Assembly: GCF_029255545.1 (NCBI RefSeq) | Contig: NZ_JANLJJ010000050.1 | Location: 1-50,610, forward strand | Source of the DNA: Ferrovibrio sp. | GTDB lineage: Bacteria; Pseudomonadota; Alphaproteobacteria; Ferrovibrionales; Ferrovibrionaceae | Reading direction: 5' to 3' | Length of the DNA stretch: 50,610 nucleotides | In this document: positions 2,694-26,403 of the stretch, one piece after another | How the letters are laid out: each line of letters begins with the position of its first letter | How positions within the stretch are numbered: position 1 is the first letter of the stretch | Notes under the pieces: generated by a model | Told to the model about the DNA's origin: nothing | The model's input: only the letters and a program-made list of their open reading frames with translations | The model's database searches: none | Translations under genes and position numbers: made by a program

Positions 2694-3100
2694 CCGCCGA
2701 CCTGCCTGAGCCAGTCGTTGAGATTGTAGGTGTTGGAGATGCGCGCCACCTTGCCGTCACGGATCTCGAAGAAGGCGCCGGCCGGCAGGCTGTAGCGCTG
2801 GCCTTCGGCCGGCGGCAGCCCCTCGTCGCTTTCCAGGTAAACGCCCAGCACGGTGAACTCGGCCGCCGCGCGCGTACCATCGGCATTCGTCATGACGAAC
2901 AGGTCGACGATCTTTTCCTCGTAGCAGCGGTTCATGCGCTCGAGGAAGGCGCGGAAGGCCGCCTTGCCAGTCTCGCGCTCACCCTGGTTGATGTCATGCA
3001 CCACATCGTCGGTGAGCAAGGCGAGGAAACCCTCGACATCCTTGTCGTTGAAGGCGTCGTAATAGCGCTGGATCAGGGTTTCGGCATTGGTGCTGGGCAT
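2690..3100 (-). CDS. NTF2-like / SnoaL-like domain protein
   Basis: A 136-residue protein with the usual opening of the NTF2-like superfamily: an N-terminal helix (LIQRYYDAFNDKDVEGFLALL) followed by the strand DDVVHDINQGERETGK, then a cone-shaped sheet ending near GAFFEIRDGKVARISNTYN. These single-domain proteins are isomerases, hydrolases or ligand carriers, and function cannot be assigned from sequence. It is the first gene of the three-gene unit with the acetyltransferase and the CN-hydrolase, which share 4-nt or short junctions. Confidence 0.82.
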   Translation of the reverse strand: MPSTNAETLIQRYYDAFNDKDVEGFLALLTDDVVHDINQGERETGKAAFRAFLERMNRCYEEKIVDLFVMTNADGTRAAAEFTVLGVYLESDEGLPPAEGQRYSLPAGAFFEIRDGKVARISNTYNLNDWLRQVGG

Positions 3101-3120
3101 GGCGCGCTCGGGTCCTGAAC

Positions 3121-3157
3121 AAAGAAAAAAGGCGCGGACAGGTTAACTGTCCACGCC
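3121..3157 (-). terminator. Rho-independent terminator after grxD
   Basis: Read on the minus strand, the arms GGCGTGGACAG and CTGTCCGCGCC pair over 11 positions with one mismatch around a 5-nt loop (3142-3146), followed directly by TTTTTT (3130-3125). This is a textbook intrinsic terminator, 34 nt after the grxD stop. It closes the pur-bolA-grxD transcript and insulates the NTF2-like operon. Confidence 0.9.
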
Positions 3158-3191
3158 CTTGAATGCCACACCGGAGGGCGGCAGGCGGCGG

Positions 3192-3533
3192 TTACGCCTC
3201 CTGGTAGGCGACGCCCTTCTGCTTCAGGTAATCCTGCAGCTCGCCACTCTGGTACATCTCGCGCACGATGTCGCAGCCGCCGACGAACTCGCCCTTCACG
3301 TAAAGCTGCGGGAAGGTCGGCCACTCGGAGAAGTCCTTCAGGTGGGTGCGGATCGCCGGATCGGCCAGGATATCCACGCCCTTGAACTTCAGGCCGAGGC
3401 GGGAGAGCACCTGCACGACCGTTGCCGAGAATCCGCACTGAGGGAACACCGGCGTGCCCTTCATGAACAGCACGACATCGTTGCCGGCCAGTTCCTCGCG
3501 GATGCGTTCGAAAGTCTGTTCCTTCTCGCTCAT
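3192..3533 (-). CDS. grxD: Monothiol glutaredoxin, Grx4 type
   Basis: A 113-residue protein with the monothiol CGFS active site (KGTPVFPQCGFSATVVQVL) and the glutathione-binding WPTFPQLYVKGEFVGGCDIV segment typical of the Grx4/GrxD family. Such proteins carry a glutathione-ligated [2Fe-2S] cluster and work with BolA in iron-sulfur trafficking or iron sensing. The ATG at 3533 is preceded by AGGGGA; the same frame runs further upstream, but the family N-terminus and this ribosome site set the start here. It follows bolA by 26 nt, and the two gene products are known partners. Confidence 0.95.
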   Translation of the reverse strand: MSEKEQTFERIREELAGNDVVLFMKGTPVFPQCGFSATVVQVLSRLGLKFKGVDILADPAIRTHLKDFSEWPTFPQLYVKGEFVGGCDIVREMYQSGELQDYLKQKGVAYQEA

Positions 3534-3559
3534 GGCGAATGTCCCCTGCGGATTTCGTG

Positions 3560-3790
3560 TTAAGGCGTTTGCGTGGTGAGGGCCAGCGCATGCAGCTGGC
3601 CGCCCATGCGGCCCTTCAGCGCGGCATAGACCATCTGGTGCTGCTGCACCCGGGTCTTGCCGGCGAAAGCGGCCGAAATCACCGTGGCGGCATAATGGTC
3701 GCCGTCGCCGCGCAGGTCGTCGATGCGCACCTGGGCGTCGGGCAGGGCCGCCTTGATCATGGTCTCGATTTCGGTGGCATCCATCGCCAT
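3560..3790 (-). CDS. bolA: BolA-family protein
   Basis: A 76-residue single-domain BolA-like protein: an N-terminal helix (TEIETMIKAALPDAQVRIDD), the strand GDGDHYAATVISAAFAGK, and the helix-turn-like QHQMVYAALKGRMGGQLHALAL containing the conserved cluster-ligand His (GQLHAL). AAGGA lies 9 nt before the ATG at 3790; an ATG two codons later is possible. BolA proteins form [2Fe-2S] complexes with CGFS glutaredoxins, and grxD is the next gene. The gene lies 29 nt downstream of purL and is probably co-transcribed with it. Confidence 0.93.
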   Translation of the reverse strand: MAMDATEIETMIKAALPDAQVRIDDLRGDGDHYAATVISAAFAGKTRVQQHQMVYAALKGRMGGQLHALALTTQTP

Positions 3791-3819
3791 CGTCAGCGGT
3801 CCTTCTTTTCCGGTCTTTT

Positions 3820-6014
<2,195 letters not shown>

Positions 6015-6018
<4 letters not shown>

Positions 6019-6710
6019 GACAGGCTCTCCGCGATGCTCTCGAACAGGCCCATGCCATCCAGGCCGCCGCAGACGGGATCGGTGGCATCTTCCGGATGCG
6101 GCATCAGGCCCAGCACGGTTTTCTTGGCGTTGTAGATGCCGGCGATGTTGCCGACCGATCCATTGAGATTGGTTTCCGGCGAAACCGTGCCGAGCGGATC
6201 GGCGTAGCGGAAGGCGATCTGGTCGTTGTCTTCCAGGCGCTTCACGGTATCGGCATCGGCGGTGTAGTTGCCATCGTGATGGGCGACCGGCACGCGGATG
6301 GTCTGGCCCTTGCGGTATTTCTTCGTGAACGCGCTGGCCGTGGTCTCGACCCGCAGATTCACGTCCTTGCAGATGAACTTGAGCCCTGCATTGCTGATCA
6401 GCACGCCGGGGAGAAGTCCGGCCTCGCAGGCGATCTGGAAGCCATTGCACACCGCCAGAACGCGCACGCCGGCCTCGGCGCGCTTTTTCACCTCGCGCAT
6501 GATCGGCGAATGCGCCGCCATGGCGCCGCAGCGCAGGTAATCGCCGTAGGAAAAGCCGCCAGGCAGCACGATCAGGTCGATGCCCTCGGGCAAACCGCTG
6601 TCGCCATGCCAGACGTCAACCGGCGGCTTGCCGTTGTTGACCTTGGTCAGCGCCATGCGCATGTCGCGCTCGCGATTGGAACCGGGGAAAGTAATCAGCG
6701 CAGCTTTCAT
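6015..6710 (-). CDS. purQ: Phosphoribosylformylglycinamidine synthase, glutaminase subunit
   Basis: A 231-residue class I glutamine amidotransferase that supplies ammonia to PurL. The nucleophile Cys is in [13 protein letters not shown]; the His/Glu of the triad are in [13 protein letters not shown]. The N-terminus [17 protein letters not shown] is typical of PurQ. AAGGA is 6 nt upstream of the ATG. The stop overlaps the purL GTG start by 4 nt, so the two are translationally coupled. Upstream, a lipoprotein gene separates it from purS, which is not the usual arrangement. Confidence 0.96.
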
Positions 6711-6738
6711 GGCGATTCCTTACACCTGCCGGCGTTGG

Positions 6739-8010
6739 TCATTGCGTACCTCTTGCTTGGCTAACCTGATGCACGACGATGGCATCGTCGACCTGCCCCA
6801 TCTGATAGATCATGTCCCGGCTGGCGGAACTCAGCAGCCGGCGAGCCTGATCCCTGTAGCTGACGCCGACGCTGACCACCAGCAGGTAGCCGTCCGGGGC
6901 CGGATGCACTTCGTGGGGGATGAAGCTGAAGGGTTTGAGCGTGCCGGCTTCTGCTACGAAGATAGATTCGTAATAGCTGCCATTCCGTTCGAAATGCCGC
7001 CGAAGGGCCTGTTCGGTCGTGGTCCAGTTGGCCTTGACGTCCTGCAGGCTGGGAGCCGGTGCGTATGCGCCCGCGGCAGCCGGGGTGTTTTGCGCCGCCA
7101 TGACCAAGCCGCGATCCAGGCTGGCCTCGCGAACCACATAGGCCTGTTCGTCACGCGCGATGCCATATCGAATCAGTTTGATCTGCGTGGACAGCCGTCG
7201 ATTCACATCGAGCGATTCCGCCACGATCTGCACCACGAGATCCAGTCTGCCCGGTTCATCGGTGCGAATGTCGGCCAGCTTCCACTCCAAGACCCGCGTC
7301 CGGCCCGGCGTGGCAAACAGAATACTGTCGTAGAAGCCGATCTCGCGCTCGGCGTGGCGCTTCAGCGCCGGCAGGATGCGCTCCCATTCGCCGCGCACCT
7401 GCTCCAGCGTCACGGCCGGCGTGCCATCGCCGGCATCCTGCGCGGTGGCGGCCGGGGCGAGGCGAGGCGTCGGGCTGGCAACCCCGTAGACGATCTCGTT
7501 GACCGCGGCGCGGCCGACCTCGTCGGAGGTGGGCGTGAGTTCCGGGTTGTAGTATTCGCACTGGCGCCGCTGCGGACCGTCAATCATCTTGCTGGCCATC
7601 AGGCCGAGGACGCCGGACATGATCAGGGTTTCGGCATCGCTCACGATTCGGCAGTTCACGCCATGTTCATTGACGCGCAGATACCACGTTTCGCCGGACT
7701 GCAGTTCACGCTGCTGCGCCGACTTCGGACTCTTGTCGCCAAACAGGCCGGCGCGGATCATGTCGGCCGTATGGGAGCCAGGCTCCACTTCGCGAATGCT
7801 GACCTGGTTGGGGCCGTTCAGGCGGCCGACATCGACCTCGTTCACGCGCACGCCATGGGCAATGATCGGGCGGTAGTCCGGCGCGGTGTAGAAGATGATG
7901 CGCGCCTTGCCGGTCGCGACTGGCTGCACGGCGGTCGGCTGCGGCACGGCCGAGCAACCCGCCAGAAGCGGGAGCCCAACGATCGCAACGAGACCCGTGC
8001 GCGACATCAT
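6739..8010 (-). CDS. Predicted lipoprotein with DUF2846-like domain and a duplicated C-terminal module
   Basis: A 423-residue protein with a lipoprotein signal (LVAIVGLPLLAGC, lipid-modified Cys at residue 19), hence envelope-located. Residues about 35-112 resemble DUF2846-type domains (KARIIFYTAPDYR ... VNEVDVGRLNGPNQ ... VEPGSHTADM). The rest holds two related modules at about 201-290 and 321-412: EWERILPALKRHAEREIGFYDSI aligns with NWTTTEQALRRHFERNGSYYESI. The role is unknown. It lies 8 nt after purS and 28 nt before purQ on the same strand, so it should be on the purine transcript although no purine function is evident. The start could be either of two adjacent ATGs. Confidence 0.8.
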   Translation of the reverse strand: MMSRTGLVAIVGLPLLAGCSAVPQPTAVQPVATGKARIIFYTAPDYRPIIAHGVRVNEVDVGRLNGPNQVSIREVEPGSHTADMIRAGLFGDKSPKSAQQRELQSGETWYLRVNEHGVNCRIVSDAETLIMSGVLGLMASKMIDGPQRRQCEYYNPELTPTSDEVGRAAVNEIVYGVASPTPRLAPAATAQDAGDGTPAVTLEQVRGEWERILPALKRHAEREIGFYDSILFATPGRTRVLEWKLADIRTDEPGRLDLVVQIVAESLDVNRRLSTQIKLIRYGIARDEQAYVVREASLDRGLVMAAQNTPAAAGAYAPAPSLQDVKANWTTTEQALRRHFERNGSYYESIFVAEAGTLKPFSFIPHEVHPAPDGYLLVVSVGVSYRDQARRLLSSASRDMIYQMGQVDDAIVVHQVSQARGTQ

Positions 8011-8018
8011 CCGTTCGT

Positions 8019-8273
8019 TCAGCCCACCAGTTCGACCGAGTAATTCTCGATCACCGTGTTGGCCAGCAGCTTCTGCGCCATGTCCTTCACGGCCGCTTCG
8101 ATCTCGGCCTTCGGCTTTTTCGCGAGCGCGCCAGAAAGCTCCAGCTCGATCAGCTTGCCCTGGCGCACCTCGGCGACGTCGCTGAAACCGAGCGAATGCA
8201 GGGCCTGGCCGATGGCCTTGCCCTGGGGATCGAGCACGCCGTTCTTGAGGGAAACATGCACGCGGGCTTTCAT
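8019..8273 (-). CDS. purS: Phosphoribosylformylglycinamidine synthase subunit PurS
   Basis: An 84-residue protein with the PurS signature (KARVHVSLKNGVLDPQGKAIGQALHSLGF ... VRQGKLIELEL ... VIENYSVEL). PurS bridges PurL and PurQ in bacteria with the small PurL. The ATG at 8273 gives the conserved N-terminus; AAGGA lies 11 nt upstream. The gene is separated from purC by a strong hairpin and from purQ by the lipoprotein gene. Confidence 0.95.
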   Translation of the reverse strand: MKARVHVSLKNGVLDPQGKAIGQALHSLGFSDVAEVRQGKLIELELSGALAKKPKAEIEAAVKDMAQKLLANTVIENYSVELVG

Positions 8274-8292
8274 GGAGTTCTGTGTCCTTCTC

Positions 8293-8326
8293 AAAAAGCT
8301 GCGGCGGCCTTTAGTAGGGCCGCCGC
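8293..8326 (-). terminator. Terminator-like hairpin between purC and purS
   Basis: GCGGCGGCC (8301-8309) and GGCCGCCGC (8318-8326) form a perfect 9-bp GC stem with an 8-nt loop. On the minus strand the stem is followed by AGC and then TTTTT (8297-8293). This is an intrinsic terminator or attenuator positioned to reduce read-through from purC into purS; partial read-through or a separate purS promoter would be needed for the downstream genes. Confidence 0.75.
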
Positions 8327-8356
8327 GGTATTCTCACGGCGCCTGTATCGCGCCTC

Positions 8357-9121
8357 TTACTGCATGGTGTCCGGACCCTTGATGTCGCGGGGTCCGCCCT
8401 CGGGCAGGATGCCGAGCCGCCGCGCCACCTCCTGGTAGGCCTCGGCGACATTGCCGAGATCGCGGCGGAAGCGGTCCTTGTCCATCTTCTCGTTGGTCTT
8501 CAGGTCCCACAGGCGCGCCGAATCCGGGCTGATCTCGTCGGCCAGGATGATGCGCATCTCGTCATTCTGCCACCAGCGGCCGAATTCCAGCTTGAAATCG
8601 ACCAGGCGGATGCCGATGCCGAGGAACAGGCCGGACAGGAAATCGTTGATGCGCAGCGCGAGATGCATGATCTCGTCGATTTCCTGCGGCGTGGCCCAGC
8701 CGAAGCAGGTGATATGCTCTTCCGAGACCAGCGGATCGCCCAGCTCGTCGTTCTTGTAATAGAACTCGACGATCGAGCGCGGCAGCGTGGTGCCCTCGGC
8801 GACGCCGAGCCGGGTCGCCAGCGAACCGGCGGCGACATTGCGCACCACGGTCTCGAGCGGGATGATCTCGACTTCCTTGATCAGCTGCTCGCGCATGTTG
8901 AGGCGGCGCACGAAATGGGTCGGGATGCCGACCTCGCCCAGCCGCGTCATCAGGTATTCGGAAATCCGGTTGTTGAGCACCCCCTTGCCGGTGATGGTGC
9001 CCTTTTTCTTGTTGTTGAACGCGGTCGCGTCGTCCTTGAAATACTGTACCAGAGTGCCCGGCTCGGGTCCCTCGAAGAGGACCTTCGCCTTGCCCTCATA
9101 GACCTGTCTGCGGCGCGTCAT
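8357..9121 (-). CDS. purC: Phosphoribosylaminoimidazole-succinocarboxamide synthase (SAICAR synthetase)
   Basis: A 254-residue enzyme that joins aspartate to CAIR with ATP in purine synthesis. Family hallmarks: [19 protein letters not shown] at the N-terminus, [47 protein letters not shown] and [12 protein letters not shown]. The ATG at 9121 gives the normal family N-terminus; a longer frame to 9181 adds an unrelated extension. First gene of the minus-strand pur group; upstream lies a 234-bp region shared with the divergent ATPase-inhibitor gene. Confidence 0.95.
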
Positions 9122-21887: not shown

Positions 21888-23219
21888 TCACGCCGCCGCG
21901 CGGCCGGCCGCCGCCAGCATGCGGTAGCGTTGGGCGATCGGACTGGCTGGTTTGGCATGCAGGCGTTCCGCGCTTAAAGCCTGCACCAGGCCCAGATCGC
22001 CGTCGCGTTTCGCCGCCTCGATCAGCGTCAGGTCCAGCAGGTCGCGCTGGGCATGGCTGCCGCCGAAACGGCTGGCGATGTAACGCAACGGCCGCAGGCG
22101 CAGAACCGTGTCGGCGTAATGCCCGGCCTGGAATGACAGCAGCGCCTGGGCCAGCGGCAGCCCAACCTGCATCGCCATCGCGGCGTTATTGCCACGCTTT
22201 TCGCCAGCAGCGCGTTGCAGAGTCGCCATCTGCTGTTCGATCAGATCCTGGCGGCCGGCGCCAATGAAGCCGATCAGCGCATGCACGTCGTTGAAGCTGT
22301 AGATGCCGTCCCGCACCATGCCGGACCAGGCCGCGGCCAGTTCGCCCCAGCGCGCCGCGCCCGGATCGATGCCGCGCAGATGCAGGCGCCACAGCATGGC
22401 CGAGGCGTCGATCAGGTCGAGCACCACGGTGGATTGGCCGCTGCGCACATGTTGGTCGTAGAGCGCCAGCACCTCGTCATGCTCGTCGCGATCCAGATGA
22501 AACAGCGCGAGATGCCACCAGTTATGCACGGCCATCATGTTGTCTTCGGCCCAGTGCGGGATACGCTCACGCGACCAGCGGATGCCATCTTCCACGCGGC
22601 CCTGCATTTCCATCACGTGCGCCACGGCATGATGCGCCCAGGCATCACGCGGCTCCAGCGCGCAGGCCTGGCGGCCGGCTGCCTCGGCGCGGACATAGTC
22701 GCCGCTTTCCTCCAGCCCGAAGGCCAGCATACCCTGCACCGCATGCCAGCCCGGCCGCCGGGCATCCCAGCCCGGCAGCACGCGCAGCACGCGGTCGCGC
22801 AGGTTGCGGGACTGGCCACGGTAGAAGTCGAGCAGATGACCCATCTGCAGCGCCAGCAGGTCGTGCGGATGATCAATCAGGATGTCGTCGAAGCGCTCGG
22901 CCGCGTCGTCGAAGCAGCCGGCCGCCAGGGCATCGGCCGCCACCACATGCAGCTTCTCGCGCTCGGTGCGGGCATGCCGGCGGGCCAGCGCGATGCTCTC
23001 CCGCGCCGGGGCCAGGCCGGCGGCCTCGGTGCCGCTGAGAAACAGATGCGCCCGCAGGGCATGCGCCATGGCGAAATCGGGCTGGCCGGCGATCACCGTC
23101 TCGATCGCCGCCACGGGATTGCCGCGGTAGCAATGGAACTGGGCCAGCGCCTCTTCATAGCCTTCCAGGGCGGCAGACGTGGCGCCGCTGCAGGTCTGGC
23201 CGTGAGAATCCTTCATCAT
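21888..23219 (-). CDS. Tetratricopeptide repeat protein, TTC38-like
   Basis: A 443-residue soluble helical-repeat protein. The block WAHHAVAHVMEMQGRVEDGIRWSRE followed by NMMAVHNWWHLALFHLDRDEHDEVLALYD is the signature of the TTC38 family. GGAG is 8 nt before the ATG. The molecular role of the family is not established. The gene is divergent from a TetR regulator, and an operator-like 14-mer lies 27 nt upstream of its start, so it is probably that regulator's target. Confidence 0.85.
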   Translation of the reverse strand: MMKDSHGQTCSGATSAALEGYEEALAQFHCYRGNPVAAIETVIAGQPDFAMAHALRAHLFLSGTEAAGLAPARESIALARRHARTEREKLHVVAADALAAGCFDDAAERFDDILIDHPHDLLALQMGHLLDFYRGQSRNLRDRVLRVLPGWDARRPGWHAVQGMLAFGLEESGDYVRAEAAGRQACALEPRDAWAHHAVAHVMEMQGRVEDGIRWSRERIPHWAEDNMMAVHNWWHLALFHLDRDEHDEVLALYDQHVRSGQSTVVLDLIDASAMLWRLHLRGIDPGAARWGELAAAWSGMVRDGIYSFNDVHALIGFIGAGRQDLIEQQMATLQRAAGEKRGNNAAMAMQVGLPLAQALLSFQAGHYADTVLRLRPLRYIASRFGGSHAQRDLLDLTLIEAAKRDGDLGLVQALSAERLHAKPASPIAQRYRMLAAAGRAAA

Positions 23220-23245
23220 CTGTCCGTCTCCGATGAGTCTCTAAA

Positions 23246-23259
23246 ACTGACCAGTCGGT
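23246..23259. promoter_or_regulatory. TetR operator-like site near the TTC38-like gene
   Basis: ACTGACCAGTCGGT matches the 14-mer at 23399 at 11 of 14 positions; the shared pattern is ACYGACYAGWCGGT, an imperfect palindrome. It lies 27-40 nt upstream of the TTC38-like start. Another perfect inverted repeat, GCAGAT-CA-ATCTGC, is at 23297-23310 between the two sites. Confidence 0.5.
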
Positions 23260-23398
23260 ATAAATAAGATTCTTTCTGGCCGTCAAGGTATATATCGCAG
23301 ATCAATCTGCAACCTAGAGAATGAGGTATTATGTTGATTATCATGGTATTTTTATGATTTCACACTGGTAAGCGGATTACCCTTCACTGTCTTGTGAA

Positions 23399-23412
23399 AC
23401 CGACTAGACGGT
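23399..23412. promoter_or_regulatory. TetR operator-like site near the tetR gene
   Basis: ACCGACTAGACGGT is palindromic except for one symmetric pair of positions and lies 29-42 nt before the TetR start. Its partner site is at 23246. The ACCG/CGGT half-sites resemble known AcrR/TetR operators. Probable autoregulation, inferred. Confidence 0.55.
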
Positions 23413-23440
23413 CTATATTGAGGACTTTAGAGGAGTTCCA

Positions 23441-24079
23441 ATGGCCCGCGACGGCACGGCGACCCGCACAGCGATCATGGATGCCGCCCAGGCGCTGATC
23501 CTGGAAACCGGCTTTTCCGCCGCCTCGGTGGATGCGGTGATCGCCCGCGCCGGCATCACCAAGGGCACCTTCTTCTATCACTTCAAGACCAAGGCCGACC
23601 TGGCCCTGGCCCTGGTGCAGCGCGACGCCGCCCACGACGCCGCCCTGCTGGAAGCCAATATGGCCCGCGCCGAGGCGTTAAGCCGCGATCCGCTGCAGCA
23701 GATCCTGATCTGCATGGGGCTTTATGAGGAAGAGCTGGACAAGCTGACCGCGCCCTATCCCGGCTGCCTCTATGCCACCTTCATCTACGAGGCCCAGCTG
23801 TTCGACGACCAGACGCTGGCCGTCGCGCGCGCGGTGTTCAGCAGCTGGACCACGCGCATCCTGGGCAAGCTGGAAGCGGTGATGAAGCTCTACCGCCCGC
23901 GCCTGCCGGTCGACCTGAAAACCCTGGCCGAGATGAGCCTGGTGCAGGCCGAGGGCGCCTATATCCTCTCCAAGGTGCAGCGCGACCCCAAGGCGGTGGC
24001 GGCTCAGTTCCGGCATTACCGCAATTATCTCGAGCTGCTGTTCGCCCCGCTCGATAGCGGAGCCGTGAAGCCGGCTTAA
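23441..24079 (+). CDS. TetR/AcrR-family regulator
   Basis: A 212-residue protein. The N-terminal HTH is clear (TRTAIMDAAQALILETGFSAASVDAVIARAGITKGTFFYHFKTKADL). The C-terminal ligand domain contains YPGCLYATFIYEAQLFDD, similar to YcdC/NemR-like subgroups. AGGAG lies 5 nt before the ATG. Divergent from the TTC38-like gene, with matching operator-like sites before both genes. The inducer is unknown. Confidence 0.9.
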   Translation: MARDGTATRTAIMDAAQALILETGFSAASVDAVIARAGITKGTFFYHFKTKADLALALVQRDAAHDAALLEANMARAEALSRDPLQQILICMGLYEEELDKLTAPYPGCLYATFIYEAQLFDDQTLAVARAVFSSWTTRILGKLEAVMKLYRPRLPVDLKTLAEMSLVQAEGAYILSKVQRDPKAVAAQFRHYRNYLELLFAPLDSGAVKPA

Positions 24080-24116
24080 GCTGGACGGCGGCACGACGCC
24101 TGCTTAGGCTGCGGCC

Positions 24117-25823
24117 ATGGCGGGTGGCGGACGTTTCGAGGATATCTACAGCCGGACCAAACTGGCATCCGGCCTGCTGCTGTTCAGCTTCCTGAGCACG
24201 CACCTGATCAATCATGCGCTGGGCATCGTGTCGCTGCAGGCGATGGAGGCCGGCGCGGCCGTCTTCGCCTTCATCTGGCGCAGCTGGCCCGGCAGCATCC
24301 TGCTATACGGCGCCGCGCTGCTGCATCCGCTGCTGGCGCTCTATAACTGGCTGCGGCGTGGCCATTACCGCGGCATCCCCTGGCAGGGCTGGGTGCAGGT
24401 CTCGCTCGGCCTGCTGGTGCCGCCGCTGGTCGTCGATCACGTGATCGGCACCCGCGCCCTGAACGCGGCCTTCGACCTGAACGACTCTTACGCCTATGTG
24501 CTGATGGTGCTGTTCGTGCAGGAGCCGCTGATCGGCCTGCGCCAGAACGCCCTGATCCTGGTCGCCTGGGGCCATGGCTGCATCGGCGTCTATTACTGGC
24601 TGCGGCTGAAACCCGCCTTCGAGCGCGCCTGGCCGTTTCTCTATGCCATTGCCCTGCTGCTGCCCATGGCGGCGATCCTCGGCTTCCTCTCCGGCGGCCG
24701 GTCGGTGATGCTGCTGATGCAGCAGCCCGGCTGGCTCGACGATTTCCGCGCCGCGCTGAACTGGCCCGGCCCCATCGCGCAGGATTTTGGCTACCGCGCC
24801 ATCGAGGTTGGCTATGGCGTGATGATCCTGCTGCTGGCCAGCGCGCTGATCGGCCGCGGCCTGTCGTTCCTGCTGCAGCGCCGCCGCGGCAGCATCACGA
24901 TCAGTTATCCCGATGGCCGACGTTTCCGCGGCCAGGCTGGCGCCCTGAGCGTGCTGGAAGCCAGTCGCGCCATCGGCTATCCGCATGCTTCGGTCTGCGG
25001 CGGCCAGGGCCGCTGCTCGACCTGCCGGGTGCGGGTCAGCGGCTTGGGCGCCGCCCTGCTGCCGGCGCCGGATACCGCCGAGCAGAAAGTGCTGGACCGC
25101 ATCGCCGCGCCGCCGGGCGTGCGACTGGCCTGCCAGATCCGGCCCGAAGCCGATATCGCGATCATGCCGCTGCTGCCCGCCGGCGTGCCGGCGAAGGTGG
25201 TCTATGGCGCGGCCAGCCATGCCCAGGGCGCCGAGCGCCGCATCGCCATCCTGTTCGCCGACCTGCGTGGCTTCACCAAACTCTCCGAAAGCAAGCTGCC
25301 CTACGATGTGGTCTTCGTGCTGAACCAGTATTTCAAGGCGATGGGCGAAGCCGTGGAAGGCGCCGGCGGCCGCCTCGACAAATTCATCGGCGATGGCGTG
25401 ATGGCCCTGTTCGGCATCGAGGAAGGCCCCGAGGAAGGCTGCCGCCGCGCGCTGGACGCGGCGCAGCGCATGGCGGCGGGCCTGAGCCGGCTGAACGAGG
25501 CGCTAAAAATGGATCTCGACCAGATGCTCAGGCTTGGCATCGGCATCCATTGCGGCCCCGCCATCGTCGGCGAGATGGGCCATGGCAGCGCCATGCATCT
25601 CACCGCCGTGGGCGATGCGGTCAATACCGCCAGCCGGCTGGAAAGCGCCACGAAAGACTTCGGCGCCGAACTGGTGATCTCGGCCGAGGTGGCCGAGCGC
25701 GCCGGCCCGGATGCGCTCGCGGCGCTGGCCTGGCAGCGCGAGACGGTGAGCCTGCGCGGCAAATCCGAGCCGCTGGCCGTGCTGGTGGCGCAGAAGATCG
25801 CGGCAGTACAGCCGGCGGAATAA
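24117..25823 (+). CDS. Membrane-[2Fe-2S]-adenylate/guanylate cyclase fusion
   Basis: A 568-residue three-part protein. Residues about 1-255 form a membrane region of several helices with His29, His33, His70, His83 and His143, resembling succinate-dehydrogenase-type cytochrome b subunits, so heme binding is plausible. Residues about 258-345 form a [2Fe-2S] ferredoxin domain with Cys284, Cys290, Cys293 and Cys329, the CX5CX2C spacing of adrenodoxin-type ferredoxins. Residues about 364-560 form a class III cyclase domain with metal-binding Asp372 (ILFADLRGFTKL) and Asp416 (DKFIGDGVMALFG) plus AVGDAVNTASRLE. All catalytic parts look intact. The inferred role is making cyclic nucleotide in response to membrane redox state. 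It lies 37 nt after tetR and stands as a single transcript or leads into DUF1003. Confidence 0.9.
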   Translation: MAGGGRFEDIYSRTKLASGLLLFSFLSTHLINHALGIVSLQAMEAGAAVFAFIWRSWPGSILLYGAALLHPLLALYNWLRRGHYRGIPWQGWVQVSLGLLVPPLVVDHVIGTRALNAAFDLNDSYAYVLMVLFVQEPLIGLRQNALILVAWGHGCIGVYYWLRLKPAFERAWPFLYAIALLLPMAAILGFLSGGRSVMLLMQQPGWLDDFRAALNWPGPIAQDFGYRAIEVGYGVMILLLASALIGRGLSFLLQRRRGSITISYPDGRRFRGQAGALSVLEASRAIGYPHASVCGGQGRCSTCRVRVSGLGAALLPAPDTAEQKVLDRIAAPPGVRLACQIRPEADIAIMPLLPAGVPAKVVYGAASHAQGAERRIAILFADLRGFTKLSESKLPYDVVFVLNQYFKAMGEAVEGAGGRLDKFIGDGVMALFGIEEGPEEGCRRALDAAQRMAAGLSRLNEALKMDLDQMLRLGIGIHCGPAIVGEMGHGSAMHLTAVGDAVNTASRLESATKDFGAELVISAEVAERAGPDALAALAWQRETVSLRGKSEPLAVLVAQKIAAVQPAE

Positions 25824-25914
25824 GGCCGGCTTGACCTTCATCAATCGCGACGGCTGACCCGCCGGCTAGATTGCCGTTAAAATGCCGCGTCCGCCGCCTG
25901 TATCGGAGTCTGCC

Positions 25915-26403
25915 ATGCCCAGCACCGTCATTCTGACCGACCGCGACCGCGACCTGCTGCGCCAGCTGCGCCGCCACCGCGCCAGCCACCGGCATGCCCC
26001 GCCCGGCGAGGAACGCAGCCTTGGCCAGGTCATCGCCGATGCCGTGGCCCGGGCGGTCGGCTCCTGGCGTTTCATCCTGATCCAGAGCGCGCTGCTGGTG
26101 GCCTGGATCATCGGCAACGCGTTCAACGGCAGCAATGCCTGGGATCCGTTCCCGTTCATCCTGCTCAATCTGCTACTCTCGTTCCAGGCGGCCTATACCG
26201 CGCCGGTCATCATGATGAGCCAGAACCGCCTGTCGGAAATCGACCGCCGCCATGCCGAGGATGACTACAAGGTCAACGTGAAGGCCGAGCTGGAGATCGA
26301 ATTGCTGCACCAGAAGATCGACCTGCTGCGCGAGCAGGAAATCCTCGCGCTGACCAAGGCGGTCAATGCCCTGGCCGACAAGATCGACGGCAAGGGCGTA
26401 TGA
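25915..26403 (+). CDS. DUF1003 membrane protein
   Basis: A 162-residue protein with two transmembrane helices (WRFILIQSALLVAWIIGNAF; PFPFILLNLLLSFQAAYTAPVIMM) and the conserved SQNRLSEIDRRHAEDDYKVN tail followed by a helical, possibly coiled-coil end. This is the DUF1003 signature; no biochemical function is known. GGAG lies 6 nt before the ATG at 25915. It ends 4 nt before the phosphorylase gene, so the two are probably co-translated. Confidence 0.88.
   Translation: MPSTVILTDRDRDLLRQLRRHRASHRHAPPGEERSLGQVIADAVARAVGSWRFILIQSALLVAWIIGNAFNGSNAWDPFPFILLNLLLSFQAAYTAPVIMMSQNRLSEIDRRHAEDDYKVNVKAELEIELLHQKIDLLREQEILALTKAVNALADKIDGKGV

Follow-up and report, generated by a model that had tools for sequence, protein, structure and literature searches.

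The 50,610-nucleotide stretch of DNA analysed here (the window) encodes a 568-residue protein with the architecture of CyaC, the quinone-responsive diheme-B adenylate cyclase of Sinorhizobium meliloti (SMc01818; described in PMC10463352). We consider it likely, with a probability of about 0.8, that this protein is a CyaC-type adenylate cyclase that senses the redox state of the quinone pool through a diheme anchor by the mechanism proposed below. The gene had originally been predicted to convert quinone-pool or respiratory redox state directly into a cyclic nucleotide. That mechanism is probably right in outline, since sequence, fold and the match to CyaC are all best read in this way, but the electron path from heme through the [2Fe-2S] cluster to the cyclase stays a proposal. 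The accompanying view that signalling of this type is little described has to be given up. S. meliloti CyaC has already been purified, and control by quinone redox state is stated in PMC10463352, PMC9552081 and PMC13259868, each citing Wissig 2019. The mechanism is hence likely but known in kind already; because a relative of the same build has been studied in the laboratory, the protein is a new example and not a new idea. Its value lies in showing that the quinone-sensing cyclase type, characterised in a legume symbiont, extends to a further genus of the Alphaproteobacteria.

Domain architecture and fold of the membrane domain

The open reading frame begins at an ATG and runs from 24117 to 25823 on the forward strand, on which all features of the protein lie. 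As the original prediction had it, one polypeptide joins a multi-helix membrane region to a [2Fe-2S] domain and a class III cyclase; the open reading frame, Pfam and AlphaFold2 bear this out and put the number of membrane helices at six. Fer2 matches residues 266–344 (E 3.5e-07) and Guanylate_cyc residues 374–551 (E 1.2e-18), both above cut-off, whereas residues 1–260 gave no Pfam match at E up to 1. The AlphaFold2 model of the whole protein, built from an alignment of 29 rows, contains six long helices (residues 4–37, 57–80, 89–119, 137–162, 168–201 and 219–256). Although its mean pLDDT is 88, a pTM of 0.63 makes the relative placement of the domains uncertain; residues 1–4 and 356–365 are poorly predicted.

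The [2Fe-2S] ferredoxin domain (residues 259–351, 24891..25169; limits taken from the strands of the model) sits between helix 6 and the catalytic domain. Its CX5CX2C...C motif is complete, as had been claimed, with the predicted cluster ligands at C294, C300, C303 and C339 (first to last codon, 24996..25133); the original numbering of the first three, as Cys284/290/293, was ten too low.

The class III cyclase domain (residues 369–562, 25221..25802) retains the full set of catalytic residues (D382, K422, D426, T496, N503 and R507), and the expectation of an apparently active enzyme fits this intact set. Its best match among known structures is an adenylyl cyclase (1wc1_C, 37% identity over 187 residues). 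The Lys-Thr pair of class IIIb cyclases marks ATP as the substrate. The pair K422/T496 thus points to ATP, and hence to cAMP as the predicted product; cyclic AMP or GMP had been proposed, and the pair favours the former over the latter. Twelve matches to the protein were found in its own genome at E 0.001, and just one of the twelve has the full architecture; ten others match the cyclase part and one the ferredoxin part.

The membrane domain (residues 1–256, 24117..24884) was folded by itself because cyclases crowded out other matches when the complete model was searched. AlphaFold2 predicted residues 1–257 with a pLDDT of 94 and a pTM of 0.88. The six best structural matches of this model (2bs3_C, 2bs4_C, 1qlb_C, 5xmj_C, 1e7p_C and 9lay_C; Z 14.3, 14.1, 14.0, 14.0, 13.8 and 11.7, with 184–205 residues aligned at an r.m.s.d. 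of 3.3–4.1) are all membrane subunits of fumarate reductase or succinate dehydrogenase. They represent three proteins, from Wolinella succinogenes (FrdC, four entries), Desulfovibrio gigas (one) and Chloroflexus (one), and the next match, a cytochrome b561, falls to Z 7.1. Foldseek likewise placed five fumarate reductase chains first (probability 0.98–1.00, TM 0.49–0.58, E 0.27–0.61). Helical models may reach Z scores of about 14 in this aligner without kinship. Nonetheless, Z drops from 11.7 to 7.1 below a top six made up of one kind of enzyme, and the first four long helices carry the four invariant histidines; kinship or close analogy to the FrdC/SdhC cytochrome b subunits is therefore the better reading of the modelled fold.

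A firm sequence tie to SdhC/FrdC was found neither with TIGR02046 nor by a profile search of the PDB. TIGR02046 scores 13.5–14.4 bits against the protein (cut-off 96; E 0.04), and the match is out of register, placing residues 10–50 on profile positions 95–136. At E 1e-10 the same model matched none of 299 genomes of the phylum. The family profile had no match in the PDB at E up to 1. Searched alone, the membrane domain of the window protein returned five antibody or butyrophilin matches, which we took as chance. Among eight flanking proteins scanned, two of which have no recognised family, none matched an SdhA- or SdhB-type partner.

Conservation and distribution of the anchor

The gene was found in nine of ten Ferrovibrio genomes searched, the genome of the window included. 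One copy (G004) ends at a contig edge, and the tenth genome (G009), in which there was no match, is 72% complete. Identity to the copies in four other genomes of the genus is 76–77% over 561–568 aligned positions, a conservation that argues against a chance open reading frame; metagenome-assembled genomes named Ferrovibrio carry copies that are 77% identical, which is the ground for assigning the genome of the window to this genus.

Residue conservation was assessed across the wider family. The loci fetched gave 133 membrane-domain reading frames, of which 102 were left once duplicates and incomplete domains had been removed. The resulting alignment includes the window protein, six fragments or broken genes and two rows without a cyclase; rows were picked by similarity over the whole domain, not by their histidines or cysteines. 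All 102 rows have four histidines, distributed one per helix over the first four long helices: H29 (24201..24203, helix 1), H70 (24324..24326, helix 2), H108 (24438..24440, helix 3) and H153 (24573..24575, helix 4), each a predicted heme b ligand. Their spacing is 41/38/45 in the window protein and varies narrowly in the family (39–42, 37–38 and 41–46). W151 is equally invariant. C300, C303 and C339 are kept in 102 of 102 rows and C294 in 101, the exception being a gap in a fragment; both cyclase-less rows retain the four cysteines. H290, near the cluster cysteines, occurs in 100 rows.

These residues overlap in part with those first singled out. H29 and H70 stand, H33 does not (present in 89 rows, lost in 13), and H108 and H153 had been missed although they are universal. 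Loss of the named histidines or cysteines in homologues had been proposed as the finding that would speak against the mechanism; the key residues are invariant apart from the one gap, but they are not exactly those that had been named. The alignment thereby pinpoints the histidines and cysteines to be mutated.

The cyclase residues are less uniform than this set of histidines and cysteines. At the K422 position, 82 of the 102 rows have Lys, 11 Gln, 3 another residue and 6 a gap; at the T496 position there are 92 Thr, 2 Ser, 1 Gln and 7 gaps. Seven of the 11 rows in which Gln replaces the substrate-binding Lys belong to a single family group (f171), and the substitution means that substrate or activity may differ in those rows.

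The CyaC-type anchor is widespread. At E 0.001 the membrane domain was detected in 113 of the 385 alphaproteobacterial genomes surveyed; across the phylum, 48 of 398 sampled genomes have it. Of these 48, 15 lie outside the class, and three of the 48 have weak and partial matches (G686, G747 and G749). Most matches listed in the surveys are open frames of 545–720 residues, the length expected with a cyclase. The longer family members L084, L085 and L086 contain Fer2 and cyclase domains and no extra domain at E 0.001. One Geminicoccaceae metagenome-assembled genome holds two copies on separate contigs (L044 and L045). Two further genes (L083:5197-6402 and L089:5845-7134) read as frameshifted near the join between ferredoxin and cyclase, where a sequencing error is possible.

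Neighbouring genes and relatives without a cyclase

A TetR-family regulator gene (23441..24079, + strand; Pfam TetR_N) ends 37 nt upstream of the cyclase gene, and the two are probably co-transcribed. Scans, which in themselves prove nothing, placed promoter-like sites ahead of the TetR gene but not between the two genes, and found no terminator-like site in 23200–26000. The TetR gene adjoins the cyclase gene in the window and in four other genomes of the genus. This adjacency was seen in none of the other loci examined with 1 kb flanks, and no TetR gene was found beside the more distant copies L013, L014 and L015. For 41 of the 102 reading frames, the sequence continues for at least 1 kb beyond the gene in either direction; with a TetR profile built here, five of the 41 have a TetR frame within 600 nt, all in one genus, and the idea that TetR and cyclase genes generally go together was rejected on this count. 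In L047 and L086, TetR frames lie 2.7–3.7 kb away.

In S. meliloti the TetR protein CycR binds CyaC, according to PMC10463352, as a partner rather than as a defining part of the enzyme, and by analogy the TetR protein encoded upstream may be a partner of the window cyclase. It was nevertheless rejected as the CycR counterpart. It aligns with the product of the S. meliloti Ak57 'rutR' gene, whose place suggests that it is CycR, solely in the DNA-binding part (32% identity over 50 residues). The C-terminal parts differ: the S. meliloti protein carries TetR_C_3, whereas the window TetR has only weak TetR_C_13-type scores below cut-off. By its sequence the window TetR is outside the CycR/RutR subfamily. 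In Ak57 the cyaC and rutR genes are separated by two transposase genes, and the record concerned (L047, CP090106.1) is titled pSymB and is 3.7 Mb long.

The region downstream of the cyclase gene holds a DUF1003 gene (25882..26403, + strand; PF06210, E 1.3e-36), genes resembling those of a pyrimidine phosphorylase and a beta-CASP nuclease and, in the opposite orientation, a gene for a cation ATPase. The DUF1003 gene follows the cyclase gene in four of seven other loci of the genus and is a neighbour by position alone. Elsewhere, on two rhizobial plasmids, cyclases of the same architecture (L049:4953-6665 and L050:4953-6695) directly precede a gene for an FkbM methyltransferase and also lie near glycosyltransferase and polysaccharide deacetylase genes, hinting at a role connected with surface polysaccharide.

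Three relatives combine the diheme-type anchor with Fer2 and lack the cyclase: L081 (4974-6113, − strand), L082 (5420-6577, + strand) and L161 (2-973, + strand; its start is cut by the contig end). L081 and L082, of 380 and 386 residues, came from the class survey and keep the four histidines and the four cysteines; L161 was found in the same family as L082. In each case the next frame on the same strand encodes an MscS-type channel (2770-5013, −; 6556-8505, +; and 931-2937, +, respectively) and overlaps by 22–43 nt. These overlaps are of stop-to-stop frames, so the genes are to be read as adjacent or slightly overlapping. Comparison with other family loci, the majority of them with short flanks, turned up no similar channel. 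L162 was rejected as a further cyclase-less gene since it carries a cyclase; an MscS-type gene lies about 1.9 kb downstream of it, so these channels are not confined to cyclase-less loci.

The sample is small, with three cases from three genera and two families, fragmentary matches such as L154 not being counted. Surveys of 100 genomes from one family, 39 from the other and 43 from its order yielded no further case that we recognised. That all three adjoin MscS-type genes suggests that the redox unit may serve other outputs. We tentatively raise the idea, which we rate as rather unlikely, that the diheme and [2Fe-2S] unit is a portable redox sensor whose cyclase-less forms act on the adjoining channel. 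Were this so, the gating or regulation of a membrane channel would depend on respiratory redox state; no evidently related report of a channel with ferredoxin and heme was recognised in the literature searched. The arrangement is a testable hint of another output for the sensor.

Proposed mechanism and relation to known systems

In the mechanism that we propose, the six-helix anchor would bind two b hemes through H29/H108 and H70/H153. This pairing follows the ligand pairs of W. succinogenes FrdC, in which His44/143 hold the distal and His93/182 the proximal heme (stated in PMC10739449). The hemes would exchange electrons with the quinone pool, and their redox state would probably be passed on to the [2Fe-2S] domain. 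The resulting change could alter how the class III cyclase is shaped or packs as a dimer, and with it the rate of cAMP formation from ATP; oxidation should raise activity, by analogy with S. meliloti CyaC. The cAMP would act through cAMP-binding regulators, and ten matches over cut-off to the cNMP-binding domain in the genome make such receptors possible.

In a rival reading, the hemes alone might sense quinone, with the [2Fe-2S] domain a structural linker that carries no electrons. PMC10463352 ties the redox sensitivity of CyaC to its hemes, and we infer, rather than observe, that the hemes reduce the cluster. A mere linker would, however, be expected to lose its cysteines, and their near-universal retention, extending to proteins without a cyclase and accompanied by that of H290, weakens this explanation, which we regard as possible though on balance doubtful.

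Electrons might instead enter from the cytoplasm, a soluble reductase reducing the [2Fe-2S] cluster, which would pass electrons through the hemes to quinone, so that the cyclase would report how much reductant the cytoplasm supplies. Electrons can move between heme and quinone in either direction, and the [2Fe-2S] domain scores against TIGR01941 (nqrF; E 2.6e-07), although its 29.9 bits are far below the cut-off of 295. Since Pfam identified no reductase family among the eight flanking proteins, two of which matched none at all, we judge this route unlikely. Less probable still is a membrane domain that serves as an inert or differently tuned anchor, responding for example to lipid or bicarbonate, with its histidines employed otherwise. 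The best fold match of the cyclase domain is the enzyme of Spirulina platensis, which responds to bicarbonate and has been solved with and without it. Four histidines within the membrane and W151, all invariant, together with the fold match to heme-bearing subunits, make such an anchor very improbable. We thus return to quinone sensing by a diheme anchor as the preferred reading, and to S. meliloti CyaC as the closest characterised system.

In a search of a plasmid collection, cyaC of S. meliloti Ak57 (CP090106.1) aligned with 95% of the query at 44.3% identity; an unannotated gene of Sinorhizobium sp. RAC02 ranked first, at 47.3%. CyaC is described in PMC10463352 as a class III adenylate cyclase with six helices and two b hemes that can be oxidized or reduced by ubiquinone, and as activated after oxidation; a figure legend there names a [2Fe-2S] cluster. 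Klein et al. 2023 mutated K410, T484, N491 and R495 of CyaC (PMC10463352). The Ak57 coding sequence has K, T, N and R at positions 410, 484, 491 and 495, which correspond to K422, T496, N503 and R507 of the window protein at a constant offset of 12. The two proteins share domain order, length (557 residues in the Ak57 record), the four cysteines, the Lys-Thr and Asn-Arg catalytic pairs and the four histidines, H29/H70/H108/H153 all being present in the S. meliloti row of the alignment. Wissig 2019 reportedly described a hexahelical membrane domain with a four-histidine signature.

They differ in neighbouring genes, the window TetR not being CycR-like, and in their place in the tree. In a tree of 96 rows, made by a quick method and with several deep forks open, the window protein falls within a fully supported group of seven Ferrovibrio-genus rows, whereas S. 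meliloti CyaC groups separately, together with three rows from rhizobial plasmids and four further rows. Because of these separate groups, we call the window protein a CyaC homologue of the same architecture, with orthology unproven. The S. platensis protein that bears the same name, a class IIIb cyclase, is a different one; it resembles the window protein closely in the fold of the catalytic domain (Z 26.1), to which the correspondence is limited.

Among respiratory enzymes, the type B FrdC/SdhC subunits resemble the window anchor in fold and in the one conserved histidine on each of its first four long helices. They have five helices, as in W. succinogenes FrdC, against six in the window protein. 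Prevotella FrdC is likewise modelled with five helices, and four histidines hold two hemes in FrdC, as set out in PMC10739449. The window anchor, unlike these subunits, is fused to a ferredoxin domain and a cyclase, and no significant sequence similarity between them was found.
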